A DNA stretch of 64,000 nucleotides, taken from the NCBI RefSeq assembly GCF_009749405.1, contig NZ_WBIQ01000006.1, positions 62,001-126,000 on the forward strand. The letters run 5' to 3'. The translations under genes were made by a program, and so were the position numbers. The stretch comes from Agromyces lapidis. GTDB lineage: Bacteria > Actinomycetota > Actinomycetes > Actinomycetales > Microbacteriaceae. A model generated the notes under the pieces. The model ran no database searches, was not told where the DNA came from, and saw nothing but the letters and a program-made list of their open reading frames with translations. This document shows positions 1,861 through 5,585 of the stretch, piece after piece; positions within the stretch are counted from its first letter, which is position 1; every line of letters begins with the position of its first letter.

Positions 1861-2790
1861 TTGCCCGAACTCCCCGAGGTCGAGGTCGTCCGCTCAGGGC
1901 TTGCACCCGCGGTGACCGGTGCCGTCGTCACCGCGGTCGAGGTGCTCGAGCCGCGCTCGCTGAAGCGCCACGATCCGGCATCCGGCGACTTCGAGGCGTT
2001 GCTGACCGGCGCCCGCATCGACGCGGCCGTGCGCCGCGGCAAGTTCCTCTGGCTGCCGCTCTCGGGTGACGAGCGCCGTGGCGGTCGGGCAGTGGTCGGC
2101 CACCTCGGCATGAGCGGCCAGATGCTCCTGCGCACCCCCGAACACCCGGGCGACGACCGGCACGCACGGGTGCGCCTGCACCTCGAGCATCCCGAGCACG
2201 GCGAGCTCCGCGTCGACTTCGTCGACCAGCGCATCTTCGGCTCGCTCGCGGTCGATCGTCTCGTGCCGACGAGCGACGGCGAGCTCGGCGGCTTCTCCGA
2301 CCGGGTGACGGGGGAGTGGGCGCGGCTGCTGCCCACCCAGGTCGCCCATATCGCGCGAGATCCCCTCGACCCCGCCTTCTCCGAGCGTGCGTTCGTCGCC
2401 GCGCTCGCGAAGCGCGGCACCGCCGTCAAGCGCGTGCTGCTCGACCAGGGAGTCGTCAGCGGCATCGGCAACATCTACGCCGATGAGTCGCTGTGGGCCG
2501 TGCGGCTGCACGGCGAGCAGCCCGCCTCGTCGCTCTCGCCTCGCAAGGCGCGCGACCTCCTCGCCGCCGTGCGCGACGTGCTCGGCAAGGCGCTCGCCGA
2601 GGGCGGCACGAGCTTCGACGCCCAGTACGTCAACGTCAACGGGGCATCCGGGTACTTCGAGCATTCCCTGAACGCCTACGGGCGCGCCGGCAAGCCGTGC
2701 CCGCGTTGCGGCACGCCGATGGTGCGGGAGGCCTTCATGAACCGCGGTTCGCACTTCTGCCCGAGGTGCCAGCGACGGCGCTCTCGATGA
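1861..2790 (+). CDS. mutM: Formamidopyrimidine-DNA glycosylase
   Basis: A bifunctional DNA glycosylase/AP lyase that removes 8-oxoguanine and formamidopyrimidines. The start must be the TTG at 1861: it gives fMet-PELPEVEVV, and the mature enzyme needs Pro as its first residue for Schiff-base chemistry, followed by Glu. Lys61 (GKFLWLPL) corresponds to the conserved catalytic lysine, and the C-terminal zinc finger is complete (Cys280, Cys283, Cys300, Cys303). The length of 309 residues is slightly above the E. coli enzyme. TTG begins one base after the rnc stop, so the two are translationally coupled. Confidence 0.95.
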   Translation: MPELPEVEVVRSGLAPAVTGAVVTAVEVLEPRSLKRHDPASGDFEALLTGARIDAAVRRGKFLWLPLSGDERRGGRAVVGHLGMSGQMLLRTPEHPGDDRHARVRLHLEHPEHGELRVDFVDQRIFGSLAVDRLVPTSDGELGGFSDRVTGEWARLLPTQVAHIARDPLDPAFSERAFVAALAKRGTAVKRVLLDQGVVSGIGNIYADESLWAVRLHGEQPASSLSPRKARDLLAAVRDVLGKALAEGGTSFDAQYVNVNGASGYFEHSLNAYGRAGKPCPRCGTPMVREAFMNRGSHFCPRCQRRRSR

Positions 2791-2865
2791 TCACGGATAC
2801 CGTTCTGGATGGAATGAGCGAGTGGTAGAACCGGCCGTTGGATCCGGGGCGTCTTCTGCCCGGTC

Positions 2866-3024
2866 GTGTTCATCGGGGTCGAACGCGACACGGACGGGCA
2901 GCTGTCCTCGACCACCTCGAACCTGATGGGCCACCTCGAGCGTGACGAGCGCGACGTCGCCGTCCGTGACGGGGGAGCGGAGGCAATCATCTACGACACC
3001 CTCCGTGATCACGGGATGGTCTGA
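2866..3024 (+). pseudogene. Possible 3' remnant of a lost gene
   Basis: An open frame from an in-frame stop at 2815 to TGA 3022-3024 encodes a coding-looking tail (FIGVERDTDGQLSSTTSNLM ... EAIIYDTLRDHGMV) but has no convincing start or ribosome binding site; GTG 2866 is the only possible start I see. I do not recognise the family. Its position between mutM and the promoter region of the Fic gene suggests the 3' end of a gene whose front was lost when this patch was inserted. It could instead be a small functional ORF. Confidence 0.3.
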
Positions 3025-3025
3025 A

Positions 3026-3136
3026 CCCATAATCCGATTCGCATCGTTTATGAGTATCGACATGAATTCATAAATTAGTCCCTATCTCTTATGGAAAACG
3101 GCGATTTCCCATAAAATGGGTGCAGCGGGTTATGAA
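3026..3136 (+). promoter_or_regulatory. Triple palindrome array upstream of the Fic gene
   Basis: Three copies of CATAA-N15-TTATG lie at 3028-3052, 3069-3093 and 3110-3134, with an exact 41-bp period and identical 15-bp spacers. Adjacent half-sites are therefore 20 or 21 bp apart, about two helical turns, so all six face the same side of the DNA. The stretch is AT-rich against its surroundings and ends seven bases before the Fic gene's ribosome binding site. The obvious candidate ligand is the winged-helix domain at the C-terminus of the Fic protein itself, giving autoregulation; that is an inference. Confidence 0.7.
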
Positions 3137-3153
3137 TCCGCACGAGGAGAGCG

Positions 3154-4434
3154 ATGAGCACATTCGACCCCAGGAAGGACCCGCGAGGCCGCACAAGCAA
3201 CGCAGGTTCGTTCTCCGAACGAACTCACTCCGACCCAGAGACCACCCTCGGCGCACCAGAAGACTGGCCGGCCATCGGCTCCGAAACCCTCGACTGGGAG
3301 AGCCGGTATGCGGAACCCTCCGCGCTCGAGCGGTACGGCCCCCACCCGCAGACCTATACCGCAGCCGTGCCGCCGCTCATCTCCGGGCGCGCGCTCCGGC
3401 TGAGCCCCCAGACCGCCGCGCTCGCGCGCGCAGCCGAGAACGAGCTCATCCGCTTCGATGCATCCCTGAACGACGAGATGACCGGGTTCGCGCCGCTCCT
3501 CCTCCGCTCCGAGGCCGCCGCGTCGTCGCAGATCGAGCACCTCTCCGCCAGCGCCCGCGCCATCCTCACCGCCGAGATCGGCGACACCAGCAAGCGCAAC
3601 GCCACCGAGATCGTGGGCAATACCCGGGCGATGCAGTCTGCCCTCGCCCTCGCCGACGAGCTCACCCCTGGCTCCGTGCGGAAGATGCACGAGGTCCTCA
3701 TGGGCGGCACGAACCACGCACCCGGCGACTGGCGGACCGAACCCGTCTGGATCGGCACGAGCGCGCGCAGCCCCGTCGGCGCCGCGTTCGTCGCACCCAG
3801 GTTCGAACGTGTGCCCGCACTCATGGACGACGTCATGAAGTTCGCGCGCCGAGACGACCTCCCCGTCCTCAGCCAGGTCGCCATCGCCCACGCCCAGTTC
3901 GAGACGATCCACCCCTTCACCGACGGCAACGGCCGCACCGGCCGTGCGCTCGTCCAGTCGATGCTCCGAGGCAAGGACATCACCCGCTCCGTCACCGTCC
4001 CAGTCTCCGCAGGGCTCCTCACCGACGTGAACGCCTACCATGACGCGCTCACCGCGTACCGGGCCGGTAACGTCGAACCCATCGTCGAGCAGATGGCGGT
4101 CGCCAGCGACGACGCCATCCGGAACGCCCGAACCCTCGTCGGCCAGATCCGCGAGACGACCACCGGATGGCGCGAGCAGGCGAAGCCGCGCACCGGCTCG
4201 CAGCTCGAGAAGATCCTCGACTACGCCGCCCGGCAGCCGGTGTTCACCGCCGCGACCGCGTCCGCGGACCTCGGCATCGGCACGACGAACATCTACCCGC
4301 ACCTGCGGAAGCTCGCCGAACTCGGCATTCTCAAGCAGAAGTCCGAGTACAAGATCGGCCAGGTCTGGCGCTCCGACGATGTGCTCGCCGCGCTCGACCA
4401 GTTCGTGGACCGCGCCGGCCGCCGCCGCAGCTGA
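3154..4434 (+). CDS. Fic-domain protein with C-terminal winged helix
   Basis: A 426-residue Fic family protein; the family typically transfers AMP or another nucleotide moiety to a protein hydroxyl. The core motif HPFTDGNGRTGR is intact at residues 253-264, including the catalytic His and the phosphate-binding residues. Residues 124-129 (SSQIEH) sit where the inhibitory helix motif (S/T)xxxE(G/N) is found in N-terminally inhibited Fic proteins; the Glu is kept but the last residue is His. The last 80 or so residues form a winged helix (ATASADLGIGTTNIYPHLRKLAELGIL). The ATG is preceded by GAGGAGA. No antitoxin gene is adjacent, consistent with built-in inhibition. The target is unknown. Confidence 0.9.
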   Translation: MSTFDPRKDPRGRTSNAGSFSERTHSDPETTLGAPEDWPAIGSETLDWESRYAEPSALERYGPHPQTYTAAVPPLISGRALRLSPQTAALARAAENELIRFDASLNDEMTGFAPLLLRSEAAASSQIEHLSASARAILTAEIGDTSKRNATEIVGNTRAMQSALALADELTPGSVRKMHEVLMGGTNHAPGDWRTEPVWIGTSARSPVGAAFVAPRFERVPALMDDVMKFARRDDLPVLSQVAIAHAQFETIHPFTDGNGRTGRALVQSMLRGKDITRSVTVPVSAGLLTDVNAYHDALTAYRAGNVEPIVEQMAVASDDAIRNARTLVGQIRETTTGWREQAKPRTGSQLEKILDYAARQPVFTAATASADLGIGTTNIYPHLRKLAELGILKQKSEYKIGQVWRSDDVLAALDQFVDRAGRRRS

Positions 4435-4907: not shown

Positions 4908-4934
4908 ATGTGCAGCGACGTCGGCGCGGAGCAT
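4729..4934 (-). pseudogene. Frameshifted C-terminal gene remnant
   Basis: Read on the minus strand from ATG 4934, one frame gives MLRADVAAHLPAGADPALFD and on to LVSLSAS; a +1 shift then continues as LDSTADAPSIALASGIDAG and ends HDGAVAWVKLNG with TGA at 4731-4729. The two halves join smoothly across the shift, as expected for the decayed 3' end of a real gene. I do not recognise the family. It overlaps, on the opposite strand, the proposed 5' end of the TetR gene, which makes that start suspect. Confidence 0.35.
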
Positions 4935-5585
4935 CCGCGGTTCCTTTTCCTGCACGACCCTGGAACGGAAGAAGCCGGAGCCCAGTGGTTCGAACCGGAT
5001 GGCGTCCTTTCCGCAACTGCCGCCAACGTGCTGTTCCTCGAGCACGGCTACGACCGCACCTCGCTGGCTCGCGTCGCCGAGCGCGCCGGCGTCTCCAAGG
5101 CGACGCTGTTCAAGCAGTTCCCGACCAAGGCCGAGCTCTTCGAGGCGATGGTGCTCGCCGCGGCCGGCTCGCCGGACGGCGCCTTCGAGGATCCCACGTC
5201 GGGTGACTTCAGTGCGGGACTGATCGGCTTGGGCCTCGCCTACGTCGAGCTCCTGAACCGACCGGGGATGACGGATCTGATCCGCGCGGTGATCGCCGAA
5301 TCGTCGCGGTTCCCCGAACTCCGAGAACGGGTCTTCGACTTCGGCACGCTGCCGCTGTTCGCGGCGGTGCGGTGCTGCTTCGTCACCGCGAGCGCCGAGG
5401 GGACCGCGGTCGTCGACGACCCGGACACGGCGTCCGCGCAGTTCCTCGGCATGATCTCGACCGTCGTCTTCTGGCCGCGACTGATCCATGGCGGCTGGTC
5501 GCTGAGCGACGCCGAGATGCGCCGCGTCGTGGACGAGGCGGTGTTGACCGTCGTGGCGCGGTACGGCTCACGAACCGGCGGCTGA
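4908..5585 (+). CDS. TetR-family transcriptional regulator, 5' end doubtful
   Basis: A TetR/AcrR-type repressor. The DNA-binding helix-turn-helix is clear (LFLEHGYDRTSLARVAERAG followed by VSKATLFKQFPTKAELFEAM), and the remainder is a helical ligand-binding domain without an assignable ligand. The frame opens with about 35 residues (MCSDVGAEHPRFLFLHDPG...) that are not typical of TetR proteins and overlap a decayed gene on the other strand. No good ribosome binding site or in-frame ATG lies nearer to the domain, so the original start may have been lost and replaced. The gene ends five bases from the convergent acetyltransferase gene. Confidence 0.7.
   Translation: MCSDVGAEHPRFLFLHDPGTEEAGAQWFEPDGVLSATAANVLFLEHGYDRTSLARVAERAGVSKATLFKQFPTKAELFEAMVLAAAGSPDGAFEDPTSGDFSAGLIGLGLAYVELLNRPGMTDLIRAVIAESSRFPELRERVFDFGTLPLFAAVRCCFVTASAEGTAVVDDPDTASAQFLGMISTVVFWPRLIHGGWSLSDAEMRRVVDEAVLTVVARYGSRTGG

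Follow-up and report, generated by a model that had tools for sequence, protein, structure and literature searches.

Which protein reads the regular repeat that precedes the fic gene of Agromyces lapidis? Fic enzymes are widespread and, to our knowledge, the function and cellular control of most bacterial members are largely unknown. The stretch analysed here comprises 64,000 nucleotides of contig NZ_WBIQ01000006.1 (positions 62,001–126,000); the whole stretch is referred to as the window, and positions without a label refer to it, whereas labels beginning with G, C and L are those of genomes, contigs and loci. An earlier note, made from the sequence of the window alone, had proposed that an array of phased palindromes in front of fic is bound by the winged helix at the C-terminus of the Fic protein, which would thus control its own gene. 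The comparisons described here support that interpretation at the level of sequence: very probably the array is the operator of fic, through which the gene would be repressed by cooperative binding of Fic dimers.

The array and its recurrence at fic genes

A pattern scan of the window identified three exact matches to CATAA-N15-TTATG, at 3028–3052, 3069–3093 and 3110–3134, equally spaced as the earlier note had described. Together they make up six half-sites that alternate in orientation, with steps of 20, 21, 20, 21 and 20 bp and a period of exactly 41 bp, so that the phasing given in the note was also borne out and the repeat in the window is confirmed as real. When up to two mismatches were allowed, five matches were found in the window against 0.63 expected, the highest count in 100 shuffles being three, and chains of three half-sites are expected from the half-site counts of the window itself at about 1e-8 per 64 kb. 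The 3.8 Mb genome contained just one additional exact match, and none to a reversed control pattern. Nineteen bases separate the array from the start codon of fic, which lies directly downstream of it. No terminator was found by a scan of 2780–3300, and the possibility that the array is an RNA element was rejected, there being no Rfam match in 2700–3300. The features of the locus are listed in Table 1.

Table 1. Features of the fic locus in the window
Feature	Positions	Strand	Basis
Operator array, six TTATG/CATAA half-sites	3028–3134	.	Pattern scan and comparison
Half-site 1 (flanking)	3028–3032	−	Pattern scan; Root81 comparison
TTATG-N16-CATAA, putative dimer site A (from half-sites 2 and 3)	3048–3073	.	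3′-side conservation
TTATG-N16-CATAA, putative dimer site B (from half-sites 4 and 5)	3089–3114	.	3′-side conservation; well kept compared with Root81
TAAAAT, a possible −10 element that overlaps half-site 5	3112–3117	+	Sequence inspection
Half-site 6	3130–3134	+	Pattern scan
GAGGAG, likely ribosome-binding site	3144–3149	+	Sequence inspection
fic gene, 426 amino acids (aa), Fic_N, Fic and C-terminal winged helix	3154–4434	+	Open reading frame, Pfam, model
Inhibitory-helix motif SSQIE, residues 124–128	3523–3537	+	Alignment
Fic catalytic motif HPFTDGNGRTGR, residues 253–264	3910–3945	+	Alignment
C-terminal winged helix, residues about 346–422	4189–4419	+	Confident in AlphaFold2 model
Predicted recognition helix, residues 377–389	4282–4320	+	Model; covariation columns

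Arrays were searched for blind, that is, with the pattern only and without use of the protein. A scan for three half-sites detected seven of 199 genomes of the family, the window's own included, and a control pattern detected none. In four of the other six genomes a Fic homologue of 50–55 % identity, in one case split, adjoined the array. In the fifth (G087, L249:8647–8692) the array is followed directly by a peptide resembling the Fic C-terminus; most of fic has probably been lost there, the array being left beside the remnant. A blind scan for four half-sites in about 85,000 genomes gave 21 loci, and at 15 of these a fic gene (43–90 % identity) started beside the last half-site. Relatives were also found by protein (about 49 % identity or more); at least three exact phased half-sites were present in 13 of these 26 and at least two in 17. 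At 18 of 40 loci, an ATG within the last exact half-site shared the reading frame of Fic. The check proposed in the earlier note, a search for the array at Fic homologues, therefore came out positive for much of the window's clade, whilst some close relatives lack the array.

At L131/L250 (G139:C4:119900–123600) the Fic homologue next to the array lies in two matched pieces.

Palindromes of whatever sequence were also common upstream of fic. The protein search identified Fic homologues in 120 of 299 family genomes, and among 112 family fic loci drawn from the matches listed, 47 had an upstream palindrome score of at least 11, compared with two of 558 coding segments (here and for the direct repeats below, coding DNA rather than other promoters served as the control). 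The corresponding figures for order- and phylum-level loci were 12 of 50, a set from which the second Fic of the window's own genome was left out and in which L289 duplicates a family locus, and two of 248. That second Fic paralogue (C11:163850–165031, L227; 34 % identity) has no strong palindrome upstream, its best score being 5.5.

Fic relatives were present on five named plasmids, of which Sinomonas pSA01 carries a 41 bp repeat and the other four have none at the repeat threshold. A phage origin of the array was considered and rejected: no Fic homologue was detected (tblastn, E 1e-3) in the 120 viral stretches among the matches listed. The viral contig scan for three half-sites yielded at least 120 stretches, and the 40 most GC-rich viral matches among the matches listed lay on stretches of 37–50 % GC.

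Orientation of the half-sites

In 27 arrays, conservation beyond TTATG was found mainly on its 3′ side. The core half-sites carried 0.65–0.93 bits at each of the five positions 3′ of TTATG, compared with 0.42 or less on the 5′ side; these five positions read AGT, followed by mostly T or A and lastly by A. The outer half-sites had the same polarity in weaker form, their 5′ side reaching as much as 0.46 bits. Since conservation lies mainly 3′ of TTATG, the natural dimer site is more likely to be the inward-facing TTATG-N15/16-CATAA, and CATAA-N15-TTATG would be the link between neighbouring sites. Thus the repeat recognized in the earlier note stands, but the frame in which it was read as a palindrome was probably off by half a period. 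Read as TTATG-N16-CATAA, the array in the window consists of two sites that face inwards, with a further half-site at either end. The nearest relative fetched, Agromyces sp. Root81 (90 % identity), has an aligned locus in which half-site 1 is unrecognisable, half-site 2 has one mismatch and dimer site B is well conserved. The gaps between half-sites were 15 or 16 in the arrays compared, and arrays with at least three exact half-sites had a period of 41 (35 cases), 40 (16 cases) or 42 (five cases).

A common period with unrelated half-sites

Direct repeats were counted in 205 bp stretches upstream of fic at 178 loci, each with an upstream sequence of 150 bases or more and a protein of 250 residues or more (duplicates were retained, and loci found through the array pattern itself were included). 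The counts peaked sharply, with 10 loci at offset 40 and 13 at offset 41. The remaining offsets had a mean of 0.56 and a maximum of three, with none at offset 39 and one at 42, and the coding control gave one at offset 40 and none at 41. The repeat threshold was reached by 24 loci, most loci lying below it. Reduction to 150 loci at 80 % identity left 10 at each of the two offsets, and among 80 loci below 60 % identity there were five at offset 40 and seven at 41, compared with 0.15. In a cleaner set, the 146 of 175 loci that were not of the TTATG type, six were found at offset 40, nine at 41 and at most three at any other.

The period is thus shared by half-sites of unrelated sequence, among them CTTACCAAAGG, AAGTGACA, GGAATA and TTAATGAAAC; L223, which is of the TTAATGAAAC type, has three palindromes in a row. 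A 40/41 bp period with unrelated half-sites fits cooperative binding, and points to a fixed protein–protein contact between neighbouring dimers.

Concerted change of half-sites and pairing with the winged helix

Several loci have kept the geometry of the array with other half-sites. L138 and L140 have three TTCTG-type half-sites (the last in L138 ends CAGAG), L139 has half-sites of the same type of which the third deviates, and L145 has GTATG at all four half-site positions with the spacing kept. Searches with these patterns gave little else: TTCTG was found in four of 398 genomes (the two known fic loci, a palindromic orphan in G260 and, in G698, what is apparently a chance match) and GTATG in one of 299, the known fic locus. 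The simplest reason for several half-sites having been altered together is that each array has one reader protein. Moreover, fic paralogues of the same genome have differing palindromes (e.g. G073, G093, G140 and G248), and similar palindromes recur at related Fic proteins in other genomes.

Operator similarity was correlated with winged-helix similarity when the Fic domain was allowed for (partial Mantel test, r 0.23, p 5e-4; 73 of 117 proteins, those with a palindrome score of at least 9, and 66 once near-identical ones were removed). The best seven winged-helix columns (340–412 tested) were all in the recognition helix or the wing. The best column of the Fic domain reached 0.22, near the winged-helix values save that of P382 (0.29).

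The Fic protein

The window protein matches Pfam Fic (E 7e-20) and Fic_N; its Pfam helix–turn–helix (HTH) match was weak and below the cut-off. Of 127 Fic proteins, 117 were aligned, 10 with short or broken reading frames being excluded. The motif HxFx(D/E)GN(G/K)RxxR of class II Fic proteins is present in the window protein (Table 1) and intact in 112 of the 117, and the inhibitory residues S124 and E128 were conserved in all 117. The last position of the N-terminal inhibitory motif of class II, (S/T)xxxE(G/N), is H in the window protein; the six commonest residues among the aligned proteins were N (52), Q (25), H (18), R (9), G (6) and K (2). The AlphaFold2 model, built with 41 sequences, had a mean predicted local distance difference test score of 87.7 and ended in a C-terminal winged helix with helices at 350–360, 366–373 and 377–389 (recognition) and a wing at 394–406. 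Foldseek with this model retrieved the Fic proteins 7cb8, SoFic (3zec), CbFic2 (8cil) and CccR (7xux).

Gene neighbourhood

Sixteen array loci, all chosen for fic, were compared for neighbouring genes. Open reading frames (ORFs) of at least 110 aa that recurred at three or more other array loci were fic itself, ORFs that their positions place antisense to fic, an ORF in L252 that resembles a truncated fic, and an ORF of L271 that recurred at three others; some of the loci show little of one flank. No second gene of at least 110 aa was common to these loci, shorter genes not being examined, and the Fic winged helix is therefore the most consistent candidate for the regulator, in agreement with the earlier note.

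The array might instead be bound by another regulator that controls fic, either a global factor or the TetR-type protein encoded at 4908–5585, 0.5 kb downstream of fic in the window. Proximity speaks for the TetR-type gene. Such a regulator is nevertheless very unlikely, given that fic is the sole gene of at least 110 aa common to the 16 loci apart from the ORFs just named, that the genome holds just one more exact match to the motif and that fic paralogues within one genome have differing operators. In the window, fic lies between genes that are putatively mutM-like and smc-like.

Sites without fic and fic genes without the array

A number of observations weigh against the array being an operator read by Fic. 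Six of the 21 blind loci have no fic gene. In the sixth genome of the three-half-site scan (G028, L248 near 8618) a palindromic TTATG-type array has no Fic homologue that could be found nearby, and the same is true of the palindromic TTCTG-type array of G260 (L325, G260:C6:38391–38435). The window's own genome has CATAA-N15-TTATG-N16-CATAA without fic at C6:333557–333602 (L247:8558–8603), in a prophage. Conversely, two exact TTATG half-sites are missing from nine of the 26 relatives found by protein search, among them L300, L330 and L331 (49–50 % identity), which have no phased half-site at all, exact or with one mismatch. In the palindrome scan the window's own upstream region scored only 8 and its top hit was a coding hairpin; the long N-terminal extension of this fic placed part of the array outside the stretch scanned. 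The covariation of operator and winged helix is modest, the Fic domain itself retaining a residual correlation of 0.17 (p 1e-3) in the reverse partial Mantel test. A promoter scan of 2780–3300 found no consensus promoter pair, and the composition of the 178-locus set, as given above, must also be counted here.

The six blind loci without fic come from Okibacterium (L258), Nesterenkonia (L262), a Flavobacterium tandem repeat, two AT-rich sequences and a Coriobacteriales metagenome-assembled genome; one is a probable remnant, the two AT-rich loci and the tandem repeat form further groups and two are unexplained. In the Nesterenkonia locus (L262:3775–3840) the array is followed by a short peptide resembling the Fic N-terminus, a probable remnant after loss of fic.

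Okibacterium fritillariae (L258:1830–1894) has a clean four-half-site array, and no Fic was found within the 8 kb locus. In Flavobacterium sp. AS60 (L264:1669–1816) CATAA/TTATG units stand in tandem with a 41 bp period, and no Fic was found in the locus.

Chains such as that in the prophage are expected from local half-site counts at about 1e-7 in the 18 kb prophage stretch. The prophage site lies just before a DNA cytosine methyltransferase gene (phrog_363), with two integrase genes nearby. Related phages, the best among the matches listed, align only from about the start of the methyltransferase gene. This gene might be under Fic control, to judge from the site in front of it.

Sites of this kind, at L248, L258, L264, L325 and in the prophage, are what would be expected if the repeat had no regulatory role and were the end of a mobile element, an iteron for replication or a tandem repeat that arose by chance. 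That explanation is extremely improbable when set against the fic genes adjoining 15 of the 21 blind matches, the concerted change of half-sites and the 40/41 bp period kept with unrelated half-sites.

Comparison with known Fic proteins

The closest precedent is CccR of Yersinia pseudotuberculosis, an effector secreted by a type VI secretion system, for which autorepression has been demonstrated by experiment; it binds a palindrome of two 10 bp half-sites, 26 bp apart, at its own promoter (PMC9755527, the available part). CccR (PDB 7XUX) is a class II Fic protein with a C-terminal HTH, and its fold is matched by the model of the window Fic, a candidate member of that class (Foldseek probability 1.00, identity about 20 %). 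CccR is a dimer that represses its own promoter through a palindrome, and the same may be supposed of the window Fic: its sequence has a candidate palindromic operator upstream of its own gene, and its modelled fold has the C-terminal winged helix. The operators differ, that of the window having N15/N16 gaps and a 41 bp period; the CccR type of operator is thus not the one found here, and the available part of PMC9755527 describes no phased array.

By sequence the closest solved chain is 7CB8, a Fic-domain protein of Mycobacterium marinum (E 7e-54, residues 38–422), which is also closest in fold to the window model (template modelling scores 0.84/0.91, C-terminal domain included); its PDB title mentions only cytidine diphosphate (CDP), and neither a paper on it, judged by title, nor DNA-binding data for it were found among the matches listed. 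SoFic of Shewanella oneidensis (PDB 3EQX, 3ZEC) has Fic and a C-terminal winged helix in the same overall fold, and no operator for it was found in the literature searched. CbFic2 of Coxiella burnetii (PDB 8CIL) is a class II Fic protein and, like the window Fic, a candidate member of that class, has a C-terminal winged helix; its winged helix binds DNA, on which the protein dimerises, and DNA switches its activity, but random DNA was used and the available part of the paper reports no specific operator (PMC10628234).

In CbFic2, DNA binding by the HTH alters both AMPylation and deAMPylation (PMC10628234), which lends some weight to the view that Fic binds the array as an activator, or that the array acts as a cofactor by which the enzyme is switched, rather than for repression. 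We regard this as unlikely, because the position of the array near or over the start codon fits repression and because autorepression is what is known of CccR, the relative whose operator has been tested (PMC9755527).

The 2009 Fido paper, in its available part, put forward a possible role of fused HTH domains in the regulation of fic and raised the analogy of Doc/Phd, a Fido-domain enzyme whose operon is repressed by the module's own product (PMC2686095). The DNA-binding part of Doc/Phd is a separate antitoxin, whereas that of the window Fic is fused to the enzyme, and the separate adjacent antitoxin gene of a type II toxin–antitoxin module was absent from the genes of at least 110 aa shared by the 16 loci, shorter ones not being examined.

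The earlier note knew of no described operator of this layout. No phased Fic operator array was found in the literature searched by title and start of abstract, a search outside which subscription papers largely lay, and as regards the layout the remark holds; Fic autorepression itself was already known from CccR (PMC9755527). The phased 40/41 bp array looks like a new and widespread variant of this known type of Fic autorepressor.

Proposed mechanism and significance

The comparisons show the array itself, its recurrence at fic genes, its polarity, the concerted change of its half-sites and the 40/41 bp period among Fic relatives; that Fic binds the array cooperatively and represses its gene, and that the activity of the enzyme might be tied to DNA binding, is what we infer from them. 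Fic would dimerise and its C-terminal winged helix would read TTATG(A/G)(A/G) half-sites that face each other. Further dimers would dock one period away (40–41 bp, about four turns), on the same face of the helix, and assist one another, and the bound dimers would cover the promoter and the ribosome-binding region, so that fic is repressed. The result would be a unit of one protein, an AMP-transferase whose inhibitory helix keeps it inactive and whose DNA-binding tail keeps its amount low. A wider proposal, rather doubtful at present, is that actinobacterial Fic–winged-helix proteins form ordered cooperative assemblies on 40/41 bp arrays whatever the half-site, and that these couple repression to enzyme switching, toxin and antitoxin being combined in one protein.

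A self-encoded operator with a recurring repeat is a readable signature, from which the DNA site of many Fic proteins can be predicted from upstream sequence. The array loci offer matched pairs of protein and operator with which the winged helix can be decoded, and whether AMP transfer is controlled by DNA occupancy becomes a directly testable question.
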